Origin: Opitutia bacterium
GTDB lineage: Bacteria > Verrucomicrobiota > Verrucomicrobiia > Opitutales > Opitutaceae
NCBI GenBank assembly: GCA_016187925.1
Contig: JACPIS010000023.1
Coordinates: forward strand, 62,001 to 126,000
DNA: 64,000 nt
Reading direction: 5' to 3'
Shown here: in pieces, positions 3,466-18,893 of the stretch
How positions within the stretch are numbered: position 1 is the stretch's first letter
How the letters are laid out: every line of letters begins with the position of its first letter
Notes under the pieces: generated by a model
What the model saw: the letters and a program-made list of their open reading frames with translations, nothing else
The model's database searches: none
Told to the model about the DNA's origin: nothing
Made by a program: the position numbers and the translations under genes

Positions 3466-4050
3466 ATGGCGCGGAAATCCGTCCGGCAACTCTGGAAGGC
3501 CAAGCTCGAGGGCACGCTCGCCCCCGCGACGTGGCCCGACGCGCCCACGCTGCACCGGCCGGCGTTTCGCGGTCGGGTGCTGGGCATCGATCCGAGTTTG
3601 CGCGGCACGGGTCTGGCGTTGATCGAGTTCGCGGCGGGCCGCTCGCCGGTCTTGCTCAGCTGCCGCACGGTGCGGGTCGCGCCGAAGTTCCCCATGCCGT
3701 ACTGCCTCGCGGAAATTCACCGGGCGGTGGAGGCGTTGCTGGCGGAGTTCGATGCGCGGCACGTGGCGCTGGAGCAGACGATCTACGTGCAGAATTTCCA
3801 GACGGCGCAGATCCTCGGCGCAGCCCGCGGGGCGGCCATCGCGGCGGCGGCGCTGCGCGGCAAGGACATCTACGAATACCCGCCGTTGCGCGTGAAGCAG
3901 GCGGTGGTCGGCCACGGCCGGGCCAGCAAGGAGCAGATGGCGCGCACGGTCATGGGCCTGCTCGGGCACGGCCGGCCGCTGGCCTTCGACGAAGCCGACG
4001 CCGCGGGCGTGGCGCTCTGCCATGCCTTTACGTGGCGGGACGGCGGTTAA
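3466..4050 (+). CDS. ruvC: Holliday-junction resolvase RuvC
   Basis: Endonuclease that cuts Holliday junctions with RuvAB. 194 residues, longer than typical (about 160-175) because of a 36-residue basic N-terminal extension before the first beta strand. The four catalytic acids are in place: D42 in LGIDPSLRGTG, E103 in ALEQTIY, and D175/D178 in FDEADAAGVALCHA. The start at ATG 3466 is kept because no internal methionine precedes the core. ruvA and ruvB are not in the window. It sits between TSUP and SulP genes on the same strand. Confidence 0.88.
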   Translation: MARKSVRQLWKAKLEGTLAPATWPDAPTLHRPAFRGRVLGIDPSLRGTGLALIEFAAGRSPVLLSCRTVRVAPKFPMPYCLAEIHRAVEALLAEFDARHVALEQTIYVQNFQTAQILGAARGAAIAAAALRGKDIYEYPPLRVKQAVVGHGRASKEQMARTVMGLLGHGRPLAFDEADAAGVALCHAFTWRDGG

Positions 4051-4144: not shown

Positions 4145-5959
4145 ATGAGCGCACCTATCTTCAGTTTCCGTCCGCGGTTGTTCGACACGCTGAAGGACTA
4201 CACGCGGGAGCGCTTCCGGGGTGATTTCGGGGCCGGCCTGAACGTCATGATCATGGCGTTCCCGCTCTCGATCGCGTTCGCCATCGCGTCGGGGGTGAAG
4301 CCCGAGCAGGGCCTGTTCACGGCCATCATCGGCGGCGGCCTCATCGCGGCGCTCGGCGGCTCGCGGGTGCAGATCGGCGGTCCGACCGGTGCGTTCGTCG
4401 TCATCACCTACGGCGTGGTGCAGCAATTCGGCCTCGATGGCCTGCTGCTGTGCACGATGCTGGCCGGCGTCATGCTTTGCGTGATGGGCTTCGCGCGCAT
4501 GGGCTCGGTGATCCGCTTCATCCCGTATCCGGTGTCGCGCGCCTTCACCAAGGGCATCGCCATCCTCATCCTCAGCTCGCAGATCAAGAATTTCCTCGGC
4601 CTGCAGGTCGACAAGCTGCCGGTGGATTTCCTCGGCAAAATGAAACTGCTCGCGGCGCACGCCGACGCCGTGCACTGGCCCACGGTCGGGCTGGCGGTGG
4701 CGTCGCTGCTGGTCATCGGCCTGTGGCCGACGCGGCTCGCGCGCTACGTGCCGGGCTCGATGGTCGGGCTGGTCTGCGCGACCGTGGCCGTGGGCGTGTT
4801 CGGACTGGGGGAGAAGTGGCACCTCGCGACCATCGGCTCGCAATTCGGCGGCATCGGCTCCGGCCTGCCGGCGCTGCACCTGCCGGTGGCGGACCTGCCC
4901 GTCCTGCGCGCCCTCGTGCAGCCGGCCTTCACCATCGCGTTGCTCGTTTCCATGCAGGCGCTGCTGTGCGCGGTCGTGACCGACGGCATGCTGGATGAGA
5001 AACACGATTCCAACCAGGAGCTGATCGGGCAGGGCGTGGCGAATGTCGTCGGACCGCTCTTCGGGTGCATCCCGGTGACGGGCGGCGTCGCGCGCTCCAT
5101 CGCCAACGTCCGCGCCGGCGCCCGCACGCCCGTGGCCGGGCTGGTGCATTCGGGTCTGCTGCTGCTGGTGTTGCTGGTGGCGGCGCCGCTCGCCGCGCAC
5201 ATCCCGCTGGCGACGCTGAGCGCCATCCTCGTCGTGGCCGCCTACCGCATGGTGGCGTGGAAACAGTTTCTCCGGCTGCGCCGCTGGCCGTTCAGCGACT
5301 CGTCGGTGTTCGTCGCCACCTTCGCGCTCACGGTCCTGACCGACCTGACCGTGGCGGTGGAGGTGGGCGTCGTCCTCGCCGCACTGCTGATGGTCAAGCG
5401 CATCTCCGAAACCTCCCAGATCACCGCGGTCGACGAGAGCTCCGACACCGAGGGCTCGCACCATTCGCTCATCGGCAAGGAAATCCCCGACGGCGTCCTC
5501 GTGTTCCGCGTGTTCGGCGCGTTCTTCTTCGGCGTGGTCGACAAGCTCGACGACGAACTGAAGCGCGCGACGCAGGAGCCCGACGTCCTGATCCTGCGCA
5601 TCCGCAAGGTCCTCGCGATGGACGCCACCGGGCTACAGGCGCTGGAGGATTTGCACGCCAAGCTCCGCGCCAAGGGCAAACACCTCATCCTCAGCGCGCC
5701 GCACACCCAGCCGCTTTTCGTCATGGAGAAGGCCGGTTTCCTCGACCGCATCGGCCGCGAGAACGTCTGCCCGCACATCGACGCCGCGCTCGCGCGCTCG
5801 CGCGAAATCCTCGGCCTGCCGCCCGTGGCTGAGCCGCCGGATTCCGCCGCCGGCCTGCGCGCCGAGAAACAGCAGCTCGAGTCCGCGCGCCGTGAACTCT
5901 CCGACGCGCTCGCCCGCGCCAACCGCATCCTCGGCGAGACGCCGCCGCCCGCCGCGTAA
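4145..5959 (+). CDS. SulP-family anion transporter with STAS domain
   Basis: 604 residues: an N-terminal region of about 12 membrane segments (roughly residues 30-420) starting with the SulP motif near GDFGAGLNVMIMAFPLSIAF, then a cytoplasmic STAS domain (about 440-550). A C-terminal charged helix (RAEKQQLESARRELSDALAR) may form a coiled coil. SulP proteins carry sulfate, bicarbonate or dicarboxylates, often coupled to Na+ or H+. The gene lies 244 bp upstream of, and parallel to, the Ehr-like complex operon, so a link between anion uptake and that ion pump is possible. Sulfate is the alternative, since a full assimilation pathway is present near 48-57 kb. Confidence 0.9.
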   Translation: MSAPIFSFRPRLFDTLKDYTRERFRGDFGAGLNVMIMAFPLSIAFAIASGVKPEQGLFTAIIGGGLIAALGGSRVQIGGPTGAFVVITYGVVQQFGLDGLLLCTMLAGVMLCVMGFARMGSVIRFIPYPVSRAFTKGIAILILSSQIKNFLGLQVDKLPVDFLGKMKLLAAHADAVHWPTVGLAVASLLVIGLWPTRLARYVPGSMVGLVCATVAVGVFGLGEKWHLATIGSQFGGIGSGLPALHLPVADLPVLRALVQPAFTIALLVSMQALLCAVVTDGMLDEKHDSNQELIGQGVANVVGPLFGCIPVTGGVARSIANVRAGARTPVAGLVHSGLLLLVLLVAAPLAAHIPLATLSAILVVAAYRMVAWKQFLRLRRWPFSDSSVFVATFALTVLTDLTVAVEVGVVLAALLMVKRISETSQITAVDESSDTEGSHHSLIGKEIPDGVLVFRVFGAFFFGVVDKLDDELKRATQEPDVLILRIRKVLAMDATGLQALEDLHAKLRAKGKHLILSAPHTQPLFVMEKAGFLDRIGRENVCPHIDAALARSREILGLPPVAEPPDSAAGLRAEKQQLESARRELSDALARANRILGETPPPAA

Positions 5960-6203: not shown

Positions 6204-8156
6204 ATGAGCCCCGGTCCGTTGCTCCTCGCCGCTGCTCTCGGCCTTGTCGCCGGGTTGCTGGCCGGACACTGGCTGCCGCGCGTGTGGCTGGCGCTGACCC
6301 TGGCGGGATTGCTGGCCGCGCTGACCGCCGCGGGCGTGGTATTGGGCGGTCTGGCGCCGGCGTGGGAATGGCGGAGCGCTTTCCCGGTGGCCGGCGAACC
6401 GTTGTGCCTGCGGCTCGACGCCGTGAGCGCGCTCTTTCTCGCGCTGCTCGCCGTCGTCGGCGGAGCGGGCGCGGTGTATGCGCGGGAGTATTGGAGCGAC
6501 CGGGTCCATCCGCATTCGGCGCCGCGCGGCCGCGTGTGGTGGAGCGTGCTGCTGGCGAGCATCGTGCTCGTGCTCGTGTCGACACACGGCCTGCAATTTC
6601 TCGTCGGCTGGGAACTGTTCACGCTCAGCGCGTTTTTCCTGATCACGCTCGACCGGCGCCGGAGCGAGGTGCGCGCGGCGGGCTGGCTGTATCTCGGCGC
6701 CTCGCACGCGGCGGTGCTGGCGCTCTTCGCTTTCTTCACGCTCCTCGCGGCGCGCACCGGCAGTTGGGAACTCGGCCCGCTGCGCGGCTATCCGGAGCTG
6801 GCGCCGCTGTTCTGGCTGGCGCTGTTCGGCTTCGGCCTGAAGGCGGGACTGTTTCCGCTGCACATCTGGCTGCCCGCGGCGCACGCCAACGCCCCGAGCC
6901 ACGTCTCGGCCATCCTTTCGGGTGTGACCATCAAGCTCGGCATCTACGGCCTCGTGCGTTTCACCGGCTGGCTGCCCGTGCCGGTGGAGGCGGGTTGGGT
7001 GGTGGCGGCGCTCGGTGTCGCCAGCGCGTTGCTCGGCGTGGCCTTCGCGCTCGGCCAGCACGACCTCAAGCGCCTGCTCGCCTATCACAGCGTCGAGAAC
7101 ATCGGCATCATCCTGATCGGGCTCGGCTTCGCGCTCGTGGCGGCCGGGCGGGGCAACCCGGCCTGGGGCCGGCTCGCGTTGGCGGGCGGGTTGCTGCATG
7201 TGTGGAATCACGGCCTGTTCAAGGCGCTGCTGTTCCTCGGTGCCGGCTCGGTGCTGCACGCCACGGGCACGCGCGAGATGAGCCGGCTCGGCGGACTCTG
7301 GCGGGCGATGCCGTGGACGGCGGGGCTGTTCGCGCTCGGCGCGGCGGCGATCTCGGGCCTGCCGCCGCTCAACGGCTTCGTGAGCGAATGGCTGGTTTAT
7401 CTCGGTCTCTTCGAGGCGGTGGGCGCGCAAGGCGGCACGGTGCTCGCGGCGATCCCGGCCGTGGTGCTGCTGGCGATGACCGGCGCGCTGGCGCTGGCGT
7501 GCTTCATCAAGGTGTGCGGCGTGGTCTTCCTCGGCGCGCCGCGCTCGGCGGTGGCGGAGCGGGCGCATGAGAGCGGGCCGTGGATGCGCGCGCCGATGTT
7601 CGTGCTGGCGGGTGCGTGCGTCGTCATCGGCCTGGCGCCCGTGGTGTTCTGGCCGGCGGTGGCGCGCGCGGCCGGCGAGTGGAATCCGACGTGGAGCGGA
7701 CTCGGCAGCCCCGTATCGCTCTCGATCATCGGCGCCTGCCACGTGACCTTGGTGCTGCTGGCGATCGTCGCGGTGCTGGTGCTCCGGCGACGGGTGCGGC
7801 TCAACGGCCAGCGTCGGGCGGTGACGTGGGACTGCGCCTACGCGGCGCCGACGGCGCGCATGCAATACACCGCGGGCTCCTTCGCCGGCATCATCACGGA
7901 GTGGTTTGCGTGGATTCTCCGTCCGGTGCGGCACGAGCTCCGGCCGGAGGGAGCGCTGCCCGCGGTCGCGGAACTTTCGGAGCACACGCCGGAGACGGTG
8001 CTGGAGCACGTGGTCGAGCCGGCGGGCGGCGCGGTCATGCGCGTGTCGGGGCTGGTGCGGCGGTTGCAGCACGGCCGGCTGCAGGCCTACCTGCTTTATC
8101 TTTTGATCGGCGTCGCCGCACTGGGCGCGTTGGTGCTGAGCGGAGGTGGCCAATGA
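6204..8156 (+). CDS. hyfB: HyfB-like proton-translocating subunit, copy 1
   Basis: 650-residue antiporter-like membrane subunit of the hydrogenase-4/complex I family, with about 14-16 hydrophobic segments. The ion-pathway residues conserved in this family are present: E137 in VGWELFTLS, K213 in GFGLKAGLFPLHIWLP, and K244 in SGVTIKLGIYG. The ATG at 6204 was chosen over 6159 because it gives the same length and N-terminal layout as the paralogue at 8937. First gene of an operon running to 16172. It is highly similar to copy 2, pointing to tandem duplication. No hydrogenase maturation genes are present in the window. Confidence 0.88.
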   Translation: MSPGPLLLAAALGLVAGLLAGHWLPRVWLALTLAGLLAALTAAGVVLGGLAPAWEWRSAFPVAGEPLCLRLDAVSALFLALLAVVGGAGAVYAREYWSDRVHPHSAPRGRVWWSVLLASIVLVLVSTHGLQFLVGWELFTLSAFFLITLDRRRSEVRAAGWLYLGASHAAVLALFAFFTLLAARTGSWELGPLRGYPELAPLFWLALFGFGLKAGLFPLHIWLPAAHANAPSHVSAILSGVTIKLGIYGLVRFTGWLPVPVEAGWVVAALGVASALLGVAFALGQHDLKRLLAYHSVENIGIILIGLGFALVAAGRGNPAWGRLALAGGLLHVWNHGLFKALLFLGAGSVLHATGTREMSRLGGLWRAMPWTAGLFALGAAAISGLPPLNGFVSEWLVYLGLFEAVGAQGGTVLAAIPAVVLLAMTGALALACFIKVCGVVFLGAPRSAVAERAHESGPWMRAPMFVLAGACVVIGLAPVVFWPAVARAAGEWNPTWSGLGSPVSLSIIGACHVTLVLLAIVAVLVLRRRVRLNGQRRAVTWDCAYAAPTARMQYTAGSFAGIITEWFAWILRPVRHELRPEGALPAVAELSEHTPETVLEHVVEPAGGAVMRVSGLVRRLQHGRLQAYLLYLLIGVAALGALVLSGGGQ

Positions 8157-8235
8157 ATGCGCAGACATTCCGCGCCGCGGGCGTAAGATTGTGCGTGCCA
8201 CGAACGCCCTTAACGGACAGACATCCAGCACCGCC

Positions 8236-8940
8236 ATGTATTTGAACCTCGTCCAGATTGCCGAGTCGTTCGGCGTGTCGGAAAGGGTGGTGGAGGACTG
8301 GATCCGCGCCGAGGGGCTGCCGCATGTCCCCGACCGCGGCCGGCTGCTGTTCGACCGCGCGCAGGTGGCGGCGTGGGCGGCGACGCGCGGGCTGGCGGCG
8401 CAGGCGGGCTTTCTGGCGCCGGAAAGTTCGGCGTTCGCGACCGGCTGCCGGCTGGAACCGCTGCTCCGGGCCGGCGGCGTCTGGCGCGACATTTCCGCCG
8501 CGGAACTGCCGGGGGTGATCGACCGCGTCGTCGCGGCCCTGCCGGGCGCGACTCCACCGGTCCGGCAGATGCTGGCGCAACGGCTCCGCGCCAAAGGCGG
8601 TGTGACCATCGCGCCGGTCGGCGGCGGGTACGCTTTGCCGCACCCGAGCACGCGCATCGCGCTCGGGCGCGATTCCGGCACGGTCGCGCTGGTGCTGTTG
8701 CGCGATCCGCTGCCGCTGACCGAGCCGCAGGTGGACGATGTGCCGGTCACGCGGCTGCTGTTCTTCATCGCGCCTTCGCCCCGGGCGCACCTCGACCTGC
8801 TCGGGCGGCTCAGCCGGCTGATTTCGCGCGGCCCGCTGCGCGCCCTGCTCGAGCGCGGCGCGGACGACGAGGAAGTTTATCAAGCGGCTGCGGCGGCGGA
8901 CACCACGCCCGCCACGGCCGGACGGGAGGGCGCGCCATGA
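8236..8940 (+). CDS. HTH-EIIA fusion: DNA-binding-like domain plus PTS IIA domain
   Basis: 234 residues. The N-terminal 50 (MYLNLVQIAESFGVSERVVE...) look like an excisionase/MerR-type helix-turn-helix with a following wing. Residues about 75-220 resemble a fructose/nitrogen-type EIIA domain: the phospho-acceptor position is H136 in GYALPHPST, followed by the VALVLLRDPLPL strand and a FFIAP...HLDLLGRLSRL helix. It sits between two hyfB paralogues. Its stop overlaps the second hyfB start by 4 bp, so it is translated with the complex. A regulatory role, sensing PTS phosphorylation and acting on transcription or on the pump, is inference; no EI or HPr gene is nearby. ATG 8236 is preferred to a GTG at 8146. 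Confidence 0.8.
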   Translation: MYLNLVQIAESFGVSERVVEDWIRAEGLPHVPDRGRLLFDRAQVAAWAATRGLAAQAGFLAPESSAFATGCRLEPLLRAGGVWRDISAAELPGVIDRVVAALPGATPPVRQMLAQRLRAKGGVTIAPVGGGYALPHPSTRIALGRDSGTVALVLLRDPLPLTEPQVDDVPVTRLLFFIAPSPRAHLDLLGRLSRLISRGPLRALLERGADDEEVYQAAAAADTTPATAGREGAP

Positions 8941-10889
8941 TGGCGGGAATGCTGCTGCCCGTCGCCTTGCTGGGCCTCGCGACGGGCATCGTCACCGGCC
9001 CGCGGTGGCCACGCGTGTGGCTCGCCCTGATGCTCGCCGGTTCGGCGGCGGCGCTCGTTGCGGCCGGCTCGGTGCTGGCGGGTGCGCCGGACTGGGATTG
9101 GCACAGCGATTTTCCGCTGGCGGGTGAGCTGCTGCACCTGCGGCTCGATGGCGTGAGCGCGTTCTTCCTCGCCCTGCTGGCCGTGGTCGCCGGCACCGGC
9201 TCGGCCTACGCGCACGAATATTGGAGCGACCAGGAGCAGCCCGCGTCGGCGCCGCGCGGGCGGATGTGGTGGAGCGGCCTCGTGCTCAGCCTGGCGCTCG
9301 TGCTGGTGCTGTCCAACGGCCTGCATTTCCTCATTGCGTGGGAACTCTTCGCGCTCAGCGCGTTTTTCCTCATCACGCTCGACCGGCGCCGGGCCGACGT
9401 GCGCGCGGCGGGCTGGCTGTACCTGGCGGCGTCGCACGCCGGCACGCTGGCGCTGTTTGCCTTTTTCTCCACGCTGGCGGCGCGCACGGGCAGCTGGGAG
9501 CTCGGTCCGGCACTGCGCGATAACGCGGCCCTGGCGCCGCTGTTCTGGCTGGCGCTGGCGGGGTTCGGCATCAAGGCCGGCCTGTTCCCGCTGCACATCT
9601 GGCTGCCGTCGGCGCATGCGAGCGCGCCGAGCCACGTGTCGGCGATGTTGTCCGGCGTGGCGCTCAAGGTCGGTGTGTACGGCATCGTGCGTTTCAGCGG
9701 CTGGCTGCCGGTGCCGCCGGCCGCCGGCTGGGTGCTGGTCGGCGTGGGCGTCGCGAGCGCGCTGCTCGGCATCGCGTTCGCGTTCGCGCAAAACGATTTC
9801 AAGCGCCTGCTGGCTTACTGCTCCGTCGAGAACATCGGCATCATCCTCACCGGGCTCGGCTTCGCGCTGGTGGCGGCCGGGCAGGGCGGCGCGGCGTGGG
9901 GCCGGCTGGCTCTCGTGGGCGGACTGCTGCATGTGTGGAATCACGGCCTGTTCAAGTCGCTGCTGTTCTTCGGCGCGGGCTCGGTGCTGCATGCCACCGG
10001 CACGCGCGAGATGAGCCGGCTCGGCGGACTGTGGCGGGCGATGCCGTGGACGGCCGGGCTGTTCGCGCTCGGCGCCGTGGCGATCTCCGGCCTGCCGCCG
10101 CTCAACGGCTTCGTGAGCGAGTGGCTGGTTTACCTCGGGCTTTTTGATACGGCAACCAGCCGCGGTCCCGCGGCGTGGGCCGCCGTGCCGGCGACGATCC
10201 TCCTGGCGACTTCGGGGGCGCTGGCGCTGGCGACCTTCGTGAAAGCGGGCGCGCTGATCTTCCTCGGTGCGCCGCGCTCGGAGGCGGCGAAGCACGTGCA
10301 CGAGTGCGGACCGTGGATGCGCGGGCCGATGTGGGTGCTCGCGGCGGCGTGCGTGGTCATCGCGCTGGCACCGGGTGCCGTCTGGCCGGCGGTGGCGCGG
10401 GCGGCGGGCGCGTGGCGCCCGGGTTGGGGCGGGCTCGAATTGCCGGCGCCGCTCTTCACGCTCGGCGTGGTCAACGCCACGCTGGCGGGGCTGTTCATCG
10501 TCGCCGCCGCGTGGCTTTGGCGGCGGGCGCTGGGCAACGGCCTGCGCCGGGCGCTGACGTGGGATTGCGGCTACGCGGCGCCGACGGCGCGCATGCAATA
10601 CACGGGCGGCTCCTTCGCGGGCATCGCGGCCGGCTGGTTTTTCTGGATTCTCCGTCCCGAGCGCAAACTGCGGCGGCCGCGCGGGCTGATGCCGGCGGAG
10701 GCGCGCCGCGTGGAGCGTATCCCCGAGACGGTGCTGGAGCAGGTCATCGGCCCGGCGGGCGACGGCGTCCTGCGCGCGTCCACCCTGGTGCGGCGGCTGC
10801 AGCACGGGCGGTTGCAATTCTACATTCTCTACCTGCTCGGCGGCCTTGTCGCGCTGGGCGTGTTGGTTTTAATGGGGGGCACGTCATGA
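8937..10889 (+). CDS. hyfB: HyfB-like proton-translocating subunit, copy 2
   Basis: 650 residues, the same length as copy 1 and colinear with it. It keeps the family residues: the Glu in the IAWELFALS helix, the Lys in GFGIKAGLFPLHIWLP and the Lys in SGVALKVGVYG. Long identical stretches in the central helices, for example around VENIGIIL and the GLWRAMPWTAGLFALG segment, show recent common origin. The start is ATG 8937 (a second ATG follows at once), overlapping the EIIA gene by 4 bp; the 3' end overlaps hyfC by 4 bp. With HyfF this gives the complex three antiporter-like subunits. Confidence 0.88.
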   Translation: MMAGMLLPVALLGLATGIVTGPRWPRVWLALMLAGSAAALVAAGSVLAGAPDWDWHSDFPLAGELLHLRLDGVSAFFLALLAVVAGTGSAYAHEYWSDQEQPASAPRGRMWWSGLVLSLALVLVLSNGLHFLIAWELFALSAFFLITLDRRRADVRAAGWLYLAASHAGTLALFAFFSTLAARTGSWELGPALRDNAALAPLFWLALAGFGIKAGLFPLHIWLPSAHASAPSHVSAMLSGVALKVGVYGIVRFSGWLPVPPAAGWVLVGVGVASALLGIAFAFAQNDFKRLLAYCSVENIGIILTGLGFALVAAGQGGAAWGRLALVGGLLHVWNHGLFKSLLFFGAGSVLHATGTREMSRLGGLWRAMPWTAGLFALGAVAISGLPPLNGFVSEWLVYLGLFDTATSRGPAAWAAVPATILLATSGALALATFVKAGALIFLGAPRSEAAKHVHECGPWMRGPMWVLAAACVVIALAPGAVWPAVARAAGAWRPGWGGLELPAPLFTLGVVNATLAGLFIVAAAWLWRRALGNGLRRALTWDCGYAAPTARMQYTGGSFAGIAAGWFFWILRPERKLRRPRGLMPAEARRVERIPETVLEQVIGPAGDGVLRASTLVRRLQHGRLQFYILYLLGGLVALGVLVLMGGTS

Positions 10890-11794
10890 GCCTGATCTTG
10901 GAGATTTTCCTGCGGCTGGCCGGCTGGGTGATCCTGGCGCCGCTGCTGCCGGGCATCATCAACAAGGTGAAGGCGTGGGTGGCGGGCCGGCGCGGGCCGC
11001 CGGTGCTGCAGCTTTACTACGATCTCGCGCGGCTGTGGCAGAAGGGCGTCGTGCTGAGCACGCTGGCTTCGCCGGGTTTCGTGGCCGGTCCGGCCGTGGC
11101 GTGGGTGGCCGTGGCGGGCGCGGCGCTGCTGCTGCCGCTGGGGCCGGCGGGCGGCGCGCTGAGTTTCCGCGGCGACGTGCTGCTGCTCGTCTATCTGCTC
11201 GCCGTGGCGCGGTTCTGCACGGCGTGGGCCGCACTGGAGACCGGCTCGGCCTTCGAGGGCATGGGCGCGGCGCGCGAGGTGAGCTACGCGGTGCTGACCG
11301 AGGCGGCCGTCATGACCGCGGTGTTGTCGCTCAGCGTGCTGACCGGCAGCGTGACGCTGACCACCATGCTCGCGCCGTCGGCGGGGGCGGGTGCGGCGCT
11401 GCTCGCGGCGGGCCTGTTTGCCGTGCTGCTGGCGGAGAACTGCCGCGTGCCATTCGACGATCCGAACACCCATCTTGAACTCACGATGATCCACGAGGTG
11501 ATGGTGCTCGACCACAGCGGACCGCCGCTGGCGGTGATCCTGCACGGCGCGGCGATGAAACTCCTGCTGTTCGCGCTGCTGTTGTGCGAGGCGGTGCTGC
11601 CGCTCGGCCGGCTGGCGCCGCTGCCGGCCGCCGGAGTGCTGGCGGTCGCGGTGCTGGGGGTGACGGTCGGCGTGGGGCTGGCCGAATCGCTGATGGCGCG
11701 CCTTGCCTTCCGGCGCGTGCCGCTGCTGCTGACGACGGCGTTCCTGCTCTGCCTGTTCGCGCTGCTCGCGGCGTGGAAGGGAGGCGCGGTATGA
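10886..11794 (+). CDS. hyfC: HyfC/NuoH-like membrane subunit
   Basis: 302 residues with about eight hydrophobic segments. It is the membrane anchor that joins the peripheral arm to the ion pumps in hydrogenase-4, Ech and complex I. Family hallmarks are the early GIINKVKAW...GRRGPPVLQLYYDL loop, the acidic LETGSAFEGMGAAREVSYA loop near residue 115, and the AENCRVPFDDPNTHLELTMIH loop near residue 185. The glutamates in these loops line the quinone/ion entry region in characterised relatives. It overlaps the preceding and following genes by 4 bp each. Confidence 0.9.
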   Translation: MSLILEIFLRLAGWVILAPLLPGIINKVKAWVAGRRGPPVLQLYYDLARLWQKGVVLSTLASPGFVAGPAVAWVAVAGAALLLPLGPAGGALSFRGDVLLLVYLLAVARFCTAWAALETGSAFEGMGAAREVSYAVLTEAAVMTAVLSLSVLTGSVTLTTMLAPSAGAGAALLAAGLFAVLLAENCRVPFDDPNTHLELTMIHEVMVLDHSGPPLAVILHGAAMKLLLFALLLCEAVLPLGRLAPLPAAGVLAVAVLGVTVGVGLAESLMARLAFRRVPLLLTTAFLLCLFALLAAWKGGAV

Positions 11795-12432
11795 ACGGCA
11801 CCCTGAACCTGCTCGTCGGCGTCGCGATGGGGCTCAACCTGCTCGCGCTCGGCAGTGGCCGACTGCCGGCCGTCATCCGCGCGATGTCGGTGCAAGGCGT
11901 CGTGCTCGGCGTGATGCCGCTGCTGATGGAACACCAATTCGACTGGCTCGTCGCGCTCGTTGCGCTGGCGACGGTGGCGGTGAAAGGCTTCGTGATTCCC
12001 GGCCTGCTGCGACGCGCCATGCGGACGGCGAACATCGAACGCGAGAATGAGCCGTTCATCGGCTTCGTGCCTTCGCTGCTGCTCGGCGCGGGCGGCACGA
12101 TCGCCGCCGTGGCGCTGGCGCGCGCGCTGCCGCTGCTGCCCGAGCACGCCGGCACGCTGCTGGTGCCGGGCTCGCTGGCGTCGGTGCTGACCGGCTTCGT
12201 GCTGCTGATCGGCCGGGCGAAGGCCATTTCGCAGGTCTGCGGCTATCTCATTCTCGAAAACGGCATCTATCTCTTCGGCCTGCTGCTCATCCATGCCACG
12301 CCGCTGCTGGTGGAGGCGGGCATCCTGCTCGACCTCACCGTCGGCGTGTTCGTGATCGGCATCATCGTGGACCGCATCCAACGCGCGTTCGACTCGCTCG
12401 ACACCCGCAAACTCACCGTGCTGCGCGAATGA
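11791..12432 (+). CDS. hyfE: HyfE-like membrane subunit (NuoK-like C-terminus)
   Basis: 213 residues, mostly hydrophobic, about six to seven membrane segments. The C-terminal half carries the NuoK-like pattern (QVCGYLILENGIYLFGLLL) with a membrane glutamate, and an acidic terminal stretch (DSLDTRKLTVLRE). HyfE homologues are constant partners of HyfB/HyfF in group 4 hydrogenase-type complexes. It starts at ATG 11791, overlapping hyfC, and overlaps hyfF by 4 bp, so it is translationally coupled on both sides. Confidence 0.85.
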   Translation: MNGTLNLLVGVAMGLNLLALGSGRLPAVIRAMSVQGVVLGVMPLLMEHQFDWLVALVALATVAVKGFVIPGLLRRAMRTANIERENEPFIGFVPSLLLGAGGTIAAVALARALPLLPEHAGTLLVPGSLASVLTGFVLLIGRAKAISQVCGYLILENGIYLFGLLLIHATPLLVEAGILLDLTVGVFVIGIIVDRIQRAFDSLDTRKLTVLRE

Positions 12433-13871
12433 AAGAATACCTGCTCATCATCGTGCCTTTTGCCGGGGCGGCGCTCGCGGCGGTCTGGCCGGTCGAGCGC
12501 ACCCGGGCGTGGCTGATGCCGGCGGTCGGCGTCGTGCACACGGCGTTGTCGCTCTGGCTGCTGTTCGCCCCGCCGCCCGTGGCGCCGGGAGCGTGGCTGG
12601 CTTTCGATCCGCTGGCGCGCGCGGTGCTGCCGATGGTGTCGCTGCTGTTCACCTTTTGCGCGGCTTACGGCGTCTCCTACCTCGAAGTGCGGCCGGAGCG
12701 GCCGAACCGGACGTTCGTCGCGCTGATGCTGGCCATGCTGGGCCTGTTGAGCGCGGCCCATCAGGCGCGGCATCTCGGCCTGCTCTGGATCGCGACCGAG
12801 GGCCTGACGCTCGCGGCGGTGCCGCTCCTGCACTTCAACGGCACGGCCCGCGCCTTCGAGGCGACGTGGAAATACCTGCTCGTCGGCGGCACGGGTATCG
12901 CGTTGTCGCTGCTCGGCTCGTTCTGCCTCGGCTACGCGTCGCTGCACGGCGGCGGCGGGGGCGATCTGACTTTTGCCGCGTTGATGGAGCGGGGCTCCGA
13001 TCTCTCTCGTCCGTGGGTGCTGACCGCGTGGGTGCTGCTGCTCGCGGGCTACGGCACCAAGATGGGCCTGGCGCCGATGCACACGTGGAAACCCGATGCC
13101 TACGGCGAGGCGCCCGGCATCGTCGGCGCGATGCTCGCCGGCGGCGTCACGACCGTGGCGTTCACCGCGGTGCTGCGCGTGCGCGCCGTGGTGGCCGCGG
13201 CGGGGGAGGGCGCGGTGGCCGACCGCACGCTGATGGCCATCGGATTGTTTTCCATGCTCGTGGCGGCGCTGTTTCTCCTCGGTACGCGCGACTACAAGCG
13301 CATGCTCGCCTACTCGAGCGTCGAGCACATGGGCATCCTCACGGTCGGCGCGGCCCTGGGCAGCGCGGGCGTGTGGGCGGCGCTCTTCCACGTCTGGAAC
13401 AACAGCCTGACCAAGGGCGCGCTGTTCCTGAGCGCGGGCAACATCCGGCGCGCGGCCGGCGCGAGCACGATGGACGAGGTGCGCGGCATGTCCATCGTCA
13501 CCCCGCAGTCGGCGGCGATTTTCGTGGCGGGCCTGTTCGCCGTGACGGCGTGTCCGCCGTTCGGGCCGTTCTTCAGCGAACTGCTGGTCGTGCGCACGGC
13601 CTTCGCCGCGGACCGGGCCGGCCCGGCCGCGATGTTCCTGGGCTGCCTGCTCTTCGCGTTTTTCGGCCTGACCCGTGTGGTGTTCGGCATCGTCGACGGG
13701 CGCCCGCGCACCGCGGCGCGAGCCGGCAGCCGGCGCTTCCGCGAAACCGCCGGGCTCATCCTGCCGCCGCTGCTCCTGCTCGGCTGCTCGCTCTGGCTCG
13801 GCCTGGCGACACCCACGGTGCTGACCGACGCGTGGACCGACGCGGTCAGCCAACTTTTCCCCACGCCATGA
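12429..13871 (+). CDS. hyfF: HyfF-like proton-translocating subunit
   Basis: 480 residues, about 13-14 membrane segments, a third antiporter-type subunit related to NuoL/M/N and HyfF. Diagnostic stretches are the WIATEGLTLAAVPLLHF helix, the GYGTKMGLAPMHTWKPDAYGEAPG loop with the pathway lysine, and the HMGILTVGAALGS helix. It differs from the two HyfB copies and is not a third duplicate. It overlaps hyfE at the start and the large-subunit gene at the stop, by 4 bp each. Confidence 0.9.
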   Translation: MKEYLLIIVPFAGAALAAVWPVERTRAWLMPAVGVVHTALSLWLLFAPPPVAPGAWLAFDPLARAVLPMVSLLFTFCAAYGVSYLEVRPERPNRTFVALMLAMLGLLSAAHQARHLGLLWIATEGLTLAAVPLLHFNGTARAFEATWKYLLVGGTGIALSLLGSFCLGYASLHGGGGGDLTFAALMERGSDLSRPWVLTAWVLLLAGYGTKMGLAPMHTWKPDAYGEAPGIVGAMLAGGVTTVAFTAVLRVRAVVAAAGEGAVADRTLMAIGLFSMLVAALFLLGTRDYKRMLAYSSVEHMGILTVGAALGSAGVWAALFHVWNNSLTKGALFLSAGNIRRAAGASTMDEVRGMSIVTPQSAAIFVAGLFAVTACPPFGPFFSELLVVRTAFAADRAGPAAMFLGCLLFAFFGLTRVVFGIVDGRPRTAARAGSRRFRETAGLILPPLLLLGCSLWLGLATPTVLTDAWTDAVSQLFPTP

Positions 13872-15349
13872 GTTCGCTCACTCCCTTTGCCCTGCTGGCC
13901 AACGCCACGTCGCTCCCGTGGGCCGAGGTGCCGGCGTGGCCGGCGGCGGAGTTCGTCCGCCTGACCGCGGGCGAGCTGCAGCGCGGCGGGCGGCTTTGCG
14001 CGTGGTTCGGCGTGCCCGGCTCCGGCGGCACGCGGCTCGTGGCGGTGCTGGCGTTCGACGCCGACAACACGCTGGCGGTCGGCCGCAGCCTGCCCGTAGG
14101 CGGCAGTTACCCGTCGCTCACGTTGACGCATGCGCAGGCGCATCTGTTCGAGCGCGAGGTCTGGGAGCAGCACGGCCTCGTGCCGGAGGGCCATCCGTGG
14201 CTCAAACCCGTGCGGCGGAGCGCCGGCACGGCGCCGGCCAACGGCGAATTTTTCCGCGTGGGCGGCAGCGAAGTGCACGAGGTGGCCGTCGGTCCGGTGC
14301 ACGCCGGCATCATCGAGCCCGGGCATTTCCGCTTCCAGTGTGCAGGCGAGGAGGTGCTGCATCTGGAGATCGCGCTCGGCTACCAGCACCGCGGCGTCGA
14401 GACGGCGCTGGCCGGCGGCCCGCATCGCGCGACGCTCAGCCAGCTGGAGACGGTGTCGGGCGACACGACCATTGCGCACGCCACCGCGCACGCGACGCTG
14501 ATCGAGACGCTGGGCGGCGCCGAGGCTCCGTTGCGCGCGCAATGGCTGCGCGCGATCGCACTCGAACTGGAGCGGCTGGCCAACCACACCGGCGACCTCG
14601 GCGCGCTGGCCAACGACGTGGCGTTCCTGCCCACCGCGTCGGCCTGCGGCAAGATCCGCGGCGATTTTCTCAACCTCACCGCGCTGCTCTGCGGCAACCG
14701 CTTCGGCCGCGGGCAGGTGCGCCCCGGCGGCTGCCGGCACGACCTCGAACCGGCGCGCATCGAGCGGATGCGCCCGCTGCTGACCGCGGCGCTGGCCGAG
14801 GTGGAGCAGGCGGCGGTCTGGTTGTGGGACGCCGCGTCGGCGCGCGCGCGCTTCGAGAACACCGGCACGGTGTTCACCGAGCAGGCGGCCGAGATCGGGC
14901 TCGTCGGCCCGGCGGCGCGGGCCTGCGGGCTTGTGCGCGACGTGCGTTTCGACCATCCGGCGGGCTGGCATCGTTTCGCGCAGACGCCGGTGGCCGTGTG
15001 GCCGGGCGGCGACGTGCTCTCCCGCGCGCGCGTGCGCTGGCTCGAAATCCAGCGTTCCGGACAATTCCTGCTCGAGCAGCTCGCCGCACCGCCCGAGGGC
15101 GAAATCCACGCCGCGCCCGCGGTCGCGGCGAGCGACACGCTGGCGGTCGCGCTGGTGGAAGGCTGGCGCGGCGAGGTCTGCCACGTGGCGCTGACCGACG
15201 CGGGCGGGCGTTTCCGCCGCTACAAGATCGTCGATCCATCCTTCCACAACTGGACCGGGCTCGCGCTGGCGTTGCGCGGCCAGGCCATCTCGGATTTCCC
15301 GGTCTGCAACAAGAGCTTCAACCTTTCCTACTGCGGCTTCGATCTCTGA
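13868..15349 (+). CDS. hyfG: HyfG-like large subunit lacking all Ni-Fe ligand cysteines
   Basis: 493 residues: a NuoC-like N-terminal domain (about 1-125, with the FEREVWEQHGLVPEGHPWL motif near 94-112) fused to a NuoD/NiFe-hydrogenase large-subunit domain (about 135-493). In true group 4 hydrogenases two CxxC motifs bind Ni-Fe. Here the first is VSGDT (S197, T200 in place of Cys) and the second reads DPSFHN (S458, N461). GYQHRGVE and NKSFNLSYCGFDL are otherwise typical of the family. The protein therefore should not make or oxidise H2. It fits the energy-converting-hydrogenase-related (Ehr) group, whose electron partners are unsettled. Confidence 0.9.
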   Translation: MSSLTPFALLANATSLPWAEVPAWPAAEFVRLTAGELQRGGRLCAWFGVPGSGGTRLVAVLAFDADNTLAVGRSLPVGGSYPSLTLTHAQAHLFEREVWEQHGLVPEGHPWLKPVRRSAGTAPANGEFFRVGGSEVHEVAVGPVHAGIIEPGHFRFQCAGEEVLHLEIALGYQHRGVETALAGGPHRATLSQLETVSGDTTIAHATAHATLIETLGGAEAPLRAQWLRAIALELERLANHTGDLGALANDVAFLPTASACGKIRGDFLNLTALLCGNRFGRGQVRPGGCRHDLEPARIERMRPLLTAALAEVEQAAVWLWDAASARARFENTGTVFTEQAAEIGLVGPAARACGLVRDVRFDHPAGWHRFAQTPVAVWPGGDVLSRARVRWLEIQRSGQFLLEQLAAPPEGEIHAAPAVAASDTLAVALVEGWRGEVCHVALTDAGGRFRRYKIVDPSFHNWTGLALALRGQAISDFPVCNKSFNLSYCGFDL

Positions 15350-15365
15350 CGCCGCACCCGCCGCC

Positions 15366-16172
15366 ATGTTCGTCTTCGACACCCTCACTCATCGCCTGAA
15401 GCGCGGTTGCGAAACGATGGCCTATCCCAAGGGGCCGCCGCCGGCGCTGCCCGACCGCCACGGCGGCGCGTTGCGCGTCGACGGCGCGAAATGCGCGGAA
15501 GGTTGCACGGCGTGCGTGTCTGTCTGTCCGACCGAGGCGATCACCCGCGTGCCCGGCCGGCCGGTGGCGCTCGACCTGGGACGCTGCATTTTCTGCGCGG
15601 CGTGCGTCGAGACGTGCCCGACGCAGGCGATCACTCAGACCGGCGACCACCGGATGGCGGCGCGCCGCCGCGAGGACCTGGTGCTCGGCGCGTCCGGCGC
15701 GGAGCAGGTGCGGCTCGCCGCGGCGCTCGACGAGAAATTGCGCAAGCTTTTCGGCCGCTCGCTGCGGCTGCGGCAGGTGAGCGCCGGCGGCTGCGCCGCC
15801 TGCGAGGCCGACACGAACGTGCTCGGCACCATCGGCTGGGACCTCGGCCGCTTCGGCGTGCAGTTCGTCGCCTCGCCGCGCCATGCGGACGGCCTGCTCA
15901 TCACCGGGCCGGTGTCATGCAACATGGAGCTGGCGCTGCGCAAGACGTGGGAAGCCGTGCCGGAGCCGAAGATCGTCATCGCGGTCGGCGCCTGCGCGAT
16001 CGCGGGCGGACCGTTCGTCGGCAACCCGGAGGTGCGGAACGGCGCGGCGGCGGTCGTGCCGGTCGATCTTTTCATTCCCGGCTGCCCGCCGCATCCGCTG
16101 ACGATCCTCGACGGACTGCTGCGGTTGCTCGACCGGCTGGAGGAGCGAAAAACGGGGTCGACGGCGAGTTAG
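15366..16172 (+). CDS. hyfI: fused ferredoxin and NuoB/HyfI-like small subunit
   Basis: 268 residues. A two-cluster ferredoxin domain (about 35-90) holds C43/C47/C50/C54 and C74/C77/C80/C84. The first set is spaced C-x3-C-x2-C-x3-C, one residue longer than the usual first gap; the second is canonical. A NuoB/HyfI-like domain (about 125-260) carries C143 and C146 (GGCAACE), C210 (GACAIAGG) and C240 (PGCPPHP), the set that binds the N2-type [4Fe-4S] cluster; an extra C185 lies in GPVSCNME. In E. coli the equivalents HyfH/HycF and HyfI/HycG are separate proteins. Last gene of the operon, 16 bp after the large subunit. Confidence 0.9.
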   Translation: MFVFDTLTHRLKRGCETMAYPKGPPPALPDRHGGALRVDGAKCAEGCTACVSVCPTEAITRVPGRPVALDLGRCIFCAACVETCPTQAITQTGDHRMAARRREDLVLGASGAEQVRLAAALDEKLRKLFGRSLRLRQVSAGGCAACEADTNVLGTIGWDLGRFGVQFVASPRHADGLLITGPVSCNMELALRKTWEAVPEPKIVIAVGACAIAGGPFVGNPEVRNGAAAVVPVDLFIPGCPPHPLTILDGLLRLLDRLEERKTGSTAS

Positions 16173-16205: not shown

Positions 16206-18893
16206 TCAGTTTCCCAGGACCTTTTTGATGACACGGCCGAGGTCGCCGATGCGATAGGGTTTGGTCAGGTAGCCGCAGAAGCCCATGTCGAGGAACTGGC
16301 GGGCCATGTCGTCGTTGTCGTAGCCGCTGGCCACGATGGCGCGCACGTTGGGATCGAGGTCGCGCAGGTGCTTGAAGCACTGCTCGCCGCCCATGCCGCC
16401 GATGACGGTGAGGTCCATGATGACGGCGTCGTAGGGGCGGCCGATGTTGAGGTAGCGCTTGTAGAATTGGAGCGCCTCCTCGCCGTTTTTCGCGAGGTCG
16501 TATTTGTAGCCGAGGCCCTCGAGCATCGTGCCGGTGAGGTAGCTGATCTCGGGGTCGTCGTCCATGAACAGCACGCGGCCGGTGCGGTTGGCGTAGTGGA
16601 ACGACGGTGCGCGGCGCGCCTCGACCTCGGCCTCCTGATCGACGCGCGGGAGGAAGACGGTGAACGTCGTGCCGACGCCCACCTCCGAGTCGACGCCCAG
16701 CTGGCCGCCGTGGCGCTTGATGATGGAAAGGACGGTCGCGAGCCCGAGGCCGGTGCCGGTTTTCTTGGTCGTGAAAAACGGGTCGAAGATCCTCTGCAGG
16801 TGCTCGGCCTTGATGCCGCAGCCGTTGTCGCGGACCTCGACGGCCATGTATTGTCCGGCGGCGAGCGGCGGGATCTGGCCTTCGGTGAGCGCGACGTTGC
16901 CGGCGGTGACCCAGATGTTGCCCTGTCCCGTGGGCATGGCCTGGATGGCGTTGATGACGAGGTTTTGGAAAACCTGCAGCATCTGCGCGCGGTCGACTTC
17001 GACGGTGCCAAGGTCGGCGGGGGAGTTGAGCTCGACCTTCACCGCCGAGCCCGCGGCGGAGAGCCGCACGGCGTCGGTGAGGAGTTCGCCCGGTTTGACG
17101 ACCTGGCGGGTGGCGGTGCCGCCCTTCGCGAAGGCGAGGAGCTGCTTGCTGAGACCCTTGGCCGCGAGGCAGGCGCGCTCGCTGTTTTCGAGGCCCGAGT
17201 AGTCGCGGTTGTCCTTGGCCAGCGAGACGCCGCCGAGGATGGTCGTGAGGAGATTGTTGAAATCGTGGGCGATGCCGCCGGCGAGCTGGCCGAGCGAATC
17301 GAAGCGGTTGGCGCGGATGAGTTCCTCGGGCGTCAGGCTCATCTCGTCGGGGTTGCGGAACACCACCACGGCACCCAGGGGCGTGCCGCTCGGGTCGGCG
17401 ATGGCGCGGCAGCTGTAGACGACGGGGACGGGCTTCTGGTCGGGGCCGCAGTCGAGGGCGAACTCGTTGTTCAGCGGCGTGGCCTCGCCGAACGCGAGGG
17501 CGCGGTCGAAGGGATTTTCGCCCGCGGCGTGGCTCAGCCGGTGCACGAGCCGGAAGACATCGACCACGGACTGGCCGACGAGCTGGCCGGCCTCGCGGCC
17601 GAGCAGGCGCTGGGCGACGGTGTTGGCGTGGATGACGTTGGCGTGGGAATCGGCCAGCAGCACGCCCTCGTGCAGCTCGTCGAGGGCGATGGCGAGCTGG
17701 TCGGCCGGCAGGCCGGAGGCGGCGGCCAGGCCCTCGGGCATCGGGGCGGCGAAGCCGATCACGCGCTGCAGCTCGCGCTTGCGTGAGATGACGCGCACGA
17801 CGCCCGCGTAGACCCAGAGGCTGGAGCCGTTGCGGTGGGTGAGTTGCAGCGTGTCGTAATAGACGGCCTGTCCGGGAAACGGTTTGAGGAAATACGCGGC
17901 GAGCCCGCCGGTGGTCTCCGTGGCCGGCAGCGCGCGCAGGAACGAGTCGGGCGAGTCGGGCAGCTCCGTCTCGGCGTAGCCGAGCATGGCCTTGAAGGCG
18001 GGCGAGAGCCACGAATGGTTGTCGGTGAAGTCGAGGTCGAACACCGCGACGCGGCCGCGCTCGCTCAACAGCAGCATGCGCTCCTCGGCGTGCAGCGAGG
18101 TTTCCTCGAATTCCTTGCGGTCGTGGATGTCGAGATGCGCGCCGACCACGCGCTGCAGCGCGCCGTTGGGGCCGTGCAACTGGACGCCGACGCCCTGCAC
18201 CCAGACGTAGTGGCCGCGGGCGTGCTTCATCCGGTATTCGACGGAGAAGGAGCGGCTGCCGGTCGTGGCGCCGGCGCGGCTGGCGAGCTTGTCGGGCGCG
18301 GCGGCGGAGTCCTCGGGATGGATGAGCGCGAGCCAGGTGTCGTAGGTGTTGGCGAGGCTCGAGTCCGTGTAGCCGAGCATGCGCTTCCACGCGGGCGAGT
18401 AGTAGACCTCCTGCTTGACGAAGTTCAGGTCGAAGAAACCGAGCGGGCTGCGGTCGTTGAGAGCGGCGATGAGCGAGGATTCCTCGGCGCTGGCGGTGCC
18501 GGGCACCGCGGCCGGAGCGGCCGCGGGCGCCGGACGCGAGAGGAAGGCGAAGTAGCGCGCGGGCTCCGCCGAGGCAGGCTCGAGCCGCAGCAGCGCGTCG
18601 AACGCCGCGGCCTCCTTCGGTTGCAGTTTTAGCGGGATGGATTGCGGCAGCGCCGCGGCGAGCAACACTTCCCACTGGGCCTGCAGCCAGTCGGCGTCGC
18701 GCGAAGTGACGTCAAACGCGAAGAGGTTCGGCAGGTGATCGCCCGCGAGTTCGGCGGGTTTCGCCTGCCAGAGGCTGGCCGCGCCGGGGCTGGCCAGCTC
18801 GATGCGGCCGTGGGCGTCGAGCACGAGCACCGCCTGCCCGCCGGTGAGGGCTGTGGCGTTGAGCGAGACGGATGAAGTGTTGGCCTGGTTCAA
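16206..18893 (-). CDS. soluble multi-PAS hybrid histidine kinase
   Basis: 895 residues with no membrane segment. In order: a short PAS (about 18-120), PAS fold with PAC-like end (about 140-265), another PAS (270-380), a fourth (395-515), a dimerisation/phosphoacceptor domain with H543 in [11 protein letters not shown], an ATPase domain with VINAIQAMP (N box), DNGCGI and GTGLGLA (G boxes), and a C-terminal receiver (about 775-895) with its aspartate in [11 protein letters not shown] and lysine in LTKPYR. Such kinases sense cytoplasmic redox, ligands or light. No output regulator is adjacent. It converges on the Ehr-like operon with a 33 bp gap. Confidence 0.9.

Follow-up and report, generated by a model that had tools for sequence, protein, structure and literature searches.

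An energy-converting-hydrogenase-related (Ehr) operon of an Opitutaceae bacterium with a vacated nickel-iron pocket and a phosphotransferase-type partner gene

A 64,000-nucleotide stretch of an Opitutaceae genome (contig positions 62001-126000, hereafter the window) contains eight plus-strand genes at positions 6204-16172 that form an operon for an energy-converting-hydrogenase-related (Ehr) complex of the complex I superfamily. The gene order was hyfB1, HTH-EIIA, hyfB2, hyfC, hyfE, hyfF, large subunit, and small subunit. The first hyfB-like antiporter subunit (EhrA-1 type; 6204-8156) matched Proton_antipo_M (3e-48) and hydrogenase 4 subunit B (6e-156), and was followed by a gene for a helix-turn-helix (HTH) protein fused to an EIIA-Ntr-like domain of the phosphotransferase system (PTS; 8236-8940; HTH_17 1.7e-7, PTS_EIIA_2 2e-7). 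A second hyfB-like subunit (EhrA-2 type; 8937-10889; Proton_antipo_M 2.4e-45), a HyfC/NuoH-like membrane anchor (10886-11794; NADHdh 3.3e-24), and a HyfE-like membrane subunit (11791-12432) came next, the last matching the hydrogenase 4 membrane subunit at 9e-21, under the model's cut-off, and aligning with E. coli HyfE. The operon continued with a hyfF-like antiporter subunit (12429-13871; Proton_antipo_M 5.3e-43, hydrogenase 4 subunit F 2.6e-70), the 493-residue EhrL/HyfG-like large subunit (13868-15349), which has its nickel ligands replaced and also hits Complex1_49kDa, and the small subunit EhrS (15366-16172; Fer4 families, Oxidored_q6 1.1e-25). Four-base start/stop overlaps of the ATGA type were present at every junction from the HTH-EIIA gene through the large subunit, which places the HTH-EIIA gene within the Ehr operon. 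The combination of antiporter-like subunits, a NuoH-like anchor, and a NuoB-like small subunit in one operon is that of Ehr, and profile searches of the eight genes gave no match to NuoE, NuoF, or NuoG of the NADH-input module. An earlier sequence-only reading of the locus had listed three antiporter-like subunits and the residues S197, T200, S458, and N461 of the large subunit; its genes, coordinates, and residue letters were all confirmed, the antiporter-like subunits by the Proton_antipo_M matches above.

The large subunits were aligned and placed in a tree with NuoD, HycE, and Ehr sequences, as that reading had proposed. All 54 Ehr rows among the 63 large subunits fell on one branch (Shimodaira-Hasegawa-like approximate likelihood ratio test 100), including the Geobacteraceae Ehr, sister to HycE/HyfG (support 96) and apart from NuoD, in a tree built by a quick method and with some long branches. 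This single clade and the Geobacter-type gene set support the Ehr assignment made earlier. Ehr is a known complex resembling an H2-making enzyme stripped of its nickel-iron site and is found in many phyla; descriptions of it go back to 2005/2013 (Coppi; Marreiros et al., as referenced by PMC6688271), and it is on record for Geobacter, Nitrospira, ammonia-oxidising archaea, and Methylacidiphilum (PMC7894505; PMC10284858; PMC10432482; PMC6688271). The Geobacter Ehr subunits were found by proteomics, highest on formate, with a role stated as never investigated (PMC7894505), and were treated as nonfunctional in one study (PMC13194489). The proposal of an undescribed bioenergetic system thus applies to the function, the complex itself having already been described. 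Two Ehr types also occurred together as tandem operons in one locus (L054), and in another (L040, G015) a second Ehr operon split the other, separating its hyfF from its large-subunit gene.

The large subunit has lost its nickel-iron site. A profile of 12 relatives aligned with E. coli HycE (7z0s_E) at 327.7 bits, gap-free over the C-terminus, and agreed with a second, independent MAFFT alignment with E. coli HycE, HyfG, and NuoCD; conservation was counted over 100 large-subunit relatives from many phyla. Both alignments paired the HycE nickel ligands C241/C244 with S197/T200 and C531/C534 with S487/G490. Position 197 was A or S in 97 and position 200 T or S in 95 of the relatives, position 487 was S in 99 and position 490 G in all, and none had more than one of the four nickel-site cysteines, the sole case being a Cys at the equivalent of position 197 in a Kiritimatiellae relative (L072). 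The claim that all four nickel-ligand cysteines are replaced was therefore correct for S197/T200 and for the absence of the site, and wrong for S458/N461, whose place is taken by S487/G490. S458 and N461 belong to a DPSFHN motif that matches HycE ATYAN (T502/N505) and Nqo4 APSF, a non-ligand position; a nickel or catalytic role for them was rejected as they lie outside the nickel site in both alignments. The C-terminus ended one residue past D492 in 100/100 relatives, compared to 33 further residues in HycE that include the part cut off by the maturation protease. Neither four nickel-ligating cysteines nor a protease-cleaved C-terminal extension, the hallmarks of group 4 [NiFe] hydrogenases, was found.

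Nine cysteines are left in the large subunit, of which C480 and C489 adjoin the old site and are each present in 88/100 relatives. This could point to a working hydrogenase with unusual ligands, in which the shifted C480/C489 pair takes over. Cysteines elsewhere in the same pocket had been named beforehand as an observation that would overturn the loss of the site, and these two are indeed close to the C-terminal pocket, but they occupy none of the ligand positions and have no N-terminal partner pair, which is gone in all 100 relatives apart from the single Cys above. Since the maturation-protease extension is missing in all 100 and at least 5/11 Opitutaceae Ehr carriers had no PF00374 [NiFe] large-subunit match, a maturation-dependent hydrogenase was rejected and the unusual-ligand version is extremely improbable. 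The carriers lacking a PF00374 match also argue that Ehr is independent of hydrogenase metabolism.

In contrast to the metal ligands, the proton-delivery route is retained in the alignments. The β1-β2 loop glutamate E150 (HycE E193, MbhL E21), the canopy arginine R434, H240, and E393 were present in 100/100 relatives and R351 in 99/100. Glu21 is the coupling element in the membrane-bound hydrogenase (MBH; PMC11228991), and the roles of Glu193, Cys531, and the canopy in HycE are treated in PMC9474812. The canopy aspartate (HycE Asp529), described as strictly conserved across hydrogenases and also complex I (PMC9474812), was Asn in 97/100 relatives (N485 in the window protein). An N481-K482-S483 (NKS) motif was new and invariant in the 100 relatives; HycE has neither N481 nor K482. 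At the site of the quinone-binding His of complex I (Nqo4 H38, NuoCD H224) 100/100 relatives had Ile (I149), and Q192 stood at the quinone Tyr site, such that the ligands of the metal, the quinone residues, and the canopy Asp have all been lost. An AlphaFold model of the large subunit (predicted local distance difference test, pLDDT, 85) had HycE as its closest fold (Z 39.2), followed by complex I chains (Z about 33-34).

These residues bear on the possibility that Ehr is a quinone reductase, with menaquinone in the vacated pocket of a simplified ferredoxin:quinone oxidoreductase such as FPO or NDH-1. The NuoD fold of the large subunit (complex I chains scored Z about 33), its Complex1_49kDa hit, and a loss of nickel ligands common to Ehr and complex I are consistent with this idea. 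It is nevertheless unlikely given the I149, Q192, and canopy Asn substitutions, a proximal cluster with the hydrogenase CxxC rather than an adjacent Cys pair, and the presence in the genome of two other NuoD homologs (contig C40, 3191-4351 and 171553-172644), which suggests that, in addition to Ehr, two systems of the complex I type are encoded.

In the small subunit, a 2x[4Fe-4S] ferredoxin domain at the N-terminus preceded a fused NuoB/HycG-like domain, with a proximal set that by alignment consists of four cysteines (C143-x2-C146, C210, and C240). The sequence-only reading had called this an N2-type set; the four cysteines are present, but the label is only loosely right because the CxxC spacing follows HycG and not the adjacent Cys pair of NuoB that ligates N2. 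The same residues bear on whether Ehr is a sulfane-sulfur (polysulfide) reductase like the Pyrococcus MBS, a nickel-free group 4 relative of proven function that is also without the quinone residues (PMC7684303). MBS has only three proximal cysteines, keeps two of the four nickel-site cysteines, and is missing MbhL E21 (PMC7684303), whereas the window Ehr has four proximal cysteines, none of the nickel-site cysteines, and an invariant Glu, which makes an MBS-like activity very improbable.

HyfB1, HyfB2, and HyfF all kept the channel residues (Glu in transmembrane helix 5, Lys in helices 7 and 10, and Glu in helix 12), and relatives had one to two HyfB copies. The ratio of nonsynonymous to synonymous substitution rates (dN/dS; Nei-Gojobori, five relative pairs) was 0.08-0.32 for every operon gene, a sign of purifying selection throughout, which argues against a decaying remnant; values were 0.14-0.22 for the large subunit, 0.14-0.24 for the small subunit, and about 0.1 for hyfC. 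EIIA-Ntr proteins are regulators of ion transport, and together with the absent nickel site this could fit a complex whose redox site is dead, leaving a regulated H+/Na+ antiporter or a remnant in decay, in line with the treatment of Geobacter Ehr as nonfunctional (PMC13194489). This explanation is quite unlikely: both the Fe-S and the pocket subunit are under strong purifying selection and pocket residues are invariant across phyla, which together point to a continuing need for electrons to reach the pocket, and the Geobacter subunits were seen by proteomics, most on formate (PMC7894505).

The HTH-EIIA gene inside the operon (8236-8940) had been overlooked in the sequence-only reading. Its profile matched PtsN (1a6j) at 8e-25, H136 and H185 of the EIIA domain were conserved in 96% of 46 homologs, in keeping with a putative phosphorylatable His of PTS EIIA-Ntr, and the genome encodes EI and HPr. 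Among 57 related genomes, with Ehr counted at ≥75% identity and the HTH-EIIA ortholog at ≥58% identity, the ortholog was present in all 11 Opitutaceae genomes that carry this Ehr and in none of the 46 that do not (Fisher p 5e-12, phylogeny ignored). Across phyla, HTH-EIIA was found in 44/80 loci, and in 43 of the 60 informative ones, in which the genes around the first hyfB could be assessed. A literature search found no paper linking EIIA with an energy-converting hydrogenase. That HTH-EIIA is exclusive to Ehr was rejected, as paralogs adjoin unrelated genes. One paralog (L152, G026:C104, 5849-6655) adjoined NuoM/NuoN-like genes and not Ehr.

Directly upstream of the Ehr operon lies a gene for a SulP-family anion transporter with a STAS domain (4145-5959, plus strand; Sulfate_transp 1.5e-82). 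SulP genes also adjoined Ehr in the close relatives G006, G007, G012, and G022. They did so too in G021 and G028, whose Ehr loci are divergent; there SulP was about 60% identical and had an EIIA gene ahead of it. The SulP rows of L037/L039 were spurious matches and left out. The association is suggestive of SulP as a possible functional neighbour of Ehr. When the neighbouring genes were clustered de novo, most of what emerged in this G+C-rich DNA was open reading frames in the wrong frame, the usable signals beyond the core being SulP and a histidine-kinase-like gene. The latter is represented in the window by a large hybrid histidine-kinase-like gene at 16206-18893 on the minus strand, convergent with the operon, and similar genes were near Ehr in 11/90 loci. 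A ruvC gene (3466-4050) lay upstream of SulP in the window, G006, G007, and G012, but in G010, G018, and G033 it followed the small-subunit gene of Ehr on its downstream side in convergent orientation, which shows that the Ehr operon underwent rearrangement around ruvC.

The sequence-only reading had also reported no hydrogenase maturation gene nearby, which holds for the neighbourhood; on the same contig outside the window, hypB, hypF, hypD, and a HypE-like open reading frame were located about 59-69 kb downstream (contig 135000-150000; L145, L146), and another, complete [NiFe] large subunit at a distance of about 71 kb (contig positions 147829-149379). Pyruvate:ferredoxin oxidoreductase (PFOR) was present in 11/11 Opitutaceae Ehr carriers (one fragmented) compared to 16/26 family members without this Ehr. 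For RnfC_N and nifD, no clear association with Ehr was seen.

We lean towards a reading in which Ehr would be a ferredoxin-fed H+/Na+ pump that reduces a small polar acceptor under PTS-type control. Reduced ferredoxin, e.g., from the genome's PFOR, would donate electrons to the small subunit at its 2x[4Fe-4S] domain, from which they would continue via the four-Cys proximal cluster to an acceptor in the pocket that held the NiFe site in the ancestor. E150 and the R434/H240/E393/R351 proton route may protonate the product, and movement of the β1-β2 loop could drive H+ (or H+/Na+) through the three antiporter-like subunits, as in MBH and formate hydrogenlyase (FHL). Through the HTH-EIIA protein, the PTS phosphorelay would act on how strongly Ehr is expressed or on how active it is. 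Ferredoxin is the probable donor, based upon the fused 2x[4Fe-4S] domain and PFOR in the 11 carriers, and the ferredoxin-type input and ion-pump output proposed earlier fit the operon anatomy. A small polar or anionic molecule is the favoured acceptor in view of the invariant R434 and K482 plus S487 in the pocket; H+ is excluded because the nickel site is missing, and from the residues present quinone and polysulfide are disfavoured. A more specific form of this reading is possible though doubtful: a PTS-controlled, ferredoxin-fed pump in which a pocket of E150/R434/K482/S487/N485, often with C480/C489, reduces a small polar/anionic substrate and HTH-EIIA is a non-obligate regulatory partner conserved across phyla.

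Several observations weigh against the ferredoxin-fed, PTS-controlled pump. The pocket segments 140-152 and 478-493 had pLDDT <50 in the large subunit modelled without its partners, making the pocket geometry of the AlphaFold model unusable, and the PFOR/Ehr correlation was weak (Fisher p 0.018, phylogeny uncorrected). HTH-EIIA was absent from 17/60 informative loci and its paralogs were also found away from Ehr beside unrelated genes, such that the complex does not have it as an obligatory component. What the analysis adds to the known Ehr family is a corrected map of the residues, the finding that the proton route is retained, and HTH-EIIA as a partner, and the pocket map and conserved regulatory gene provide testable residues and a genetic handle on the Ehr acceptor.

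Among known systems, the Geobacter Ehr (ehrA-1, A-2, B, C, D, L, S; GSU0739-0745) matches the window operon in its core genes, the twin HyfB-like subunits among them (PMC7894505; PMC13194489), and Geobacteraceae EhrL has 54-56% identity to the window large subunit within the same clade. HTH-EIIA adjoins some Geobacteraceae Ehr loci (L076, L077, L091), but lies ahead of both HyfB genes in L076 and L077 compared to between them in the window, which further differs from Geobacter in the SulP gene directly upstream. The window HTH-EIIA protein belongs to the same EIIA family as EIIA-Ntr (PtsN), with both conserved His, and adds the N-terminal HTH_17 and its Ehr-operon placement. The closest enzymes by tree and predicted fold (Z 39.2) are E. 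coli FHL-1/FHL-2 (HycE/HyfG), which are alike in the kinds of membrane subunit, the proton-donor Glu, and the proton route, whereas the window Ehr lacks the four nickel cysteines, the canopy Asp, the 33-residue extension, and a maturation protease gene in the operon, and has a ferredoxin domain fused to its small subunit. MBS is likewise a nickel-free group 4 relative with antiporter-like subunits, from which the window Ehr is distinguished by its four-Cys proximal cluster, no leftover nickel-site Cys, and the retained Glu. Finally, respiratory complex I (NuoD/NuoB) has the superfamily fold and pumping arm in common with Ehr, while the window complex has the hydrogenase-type CxxC and is without NuoE/F/G in the operon and the quinone His/Tyr.

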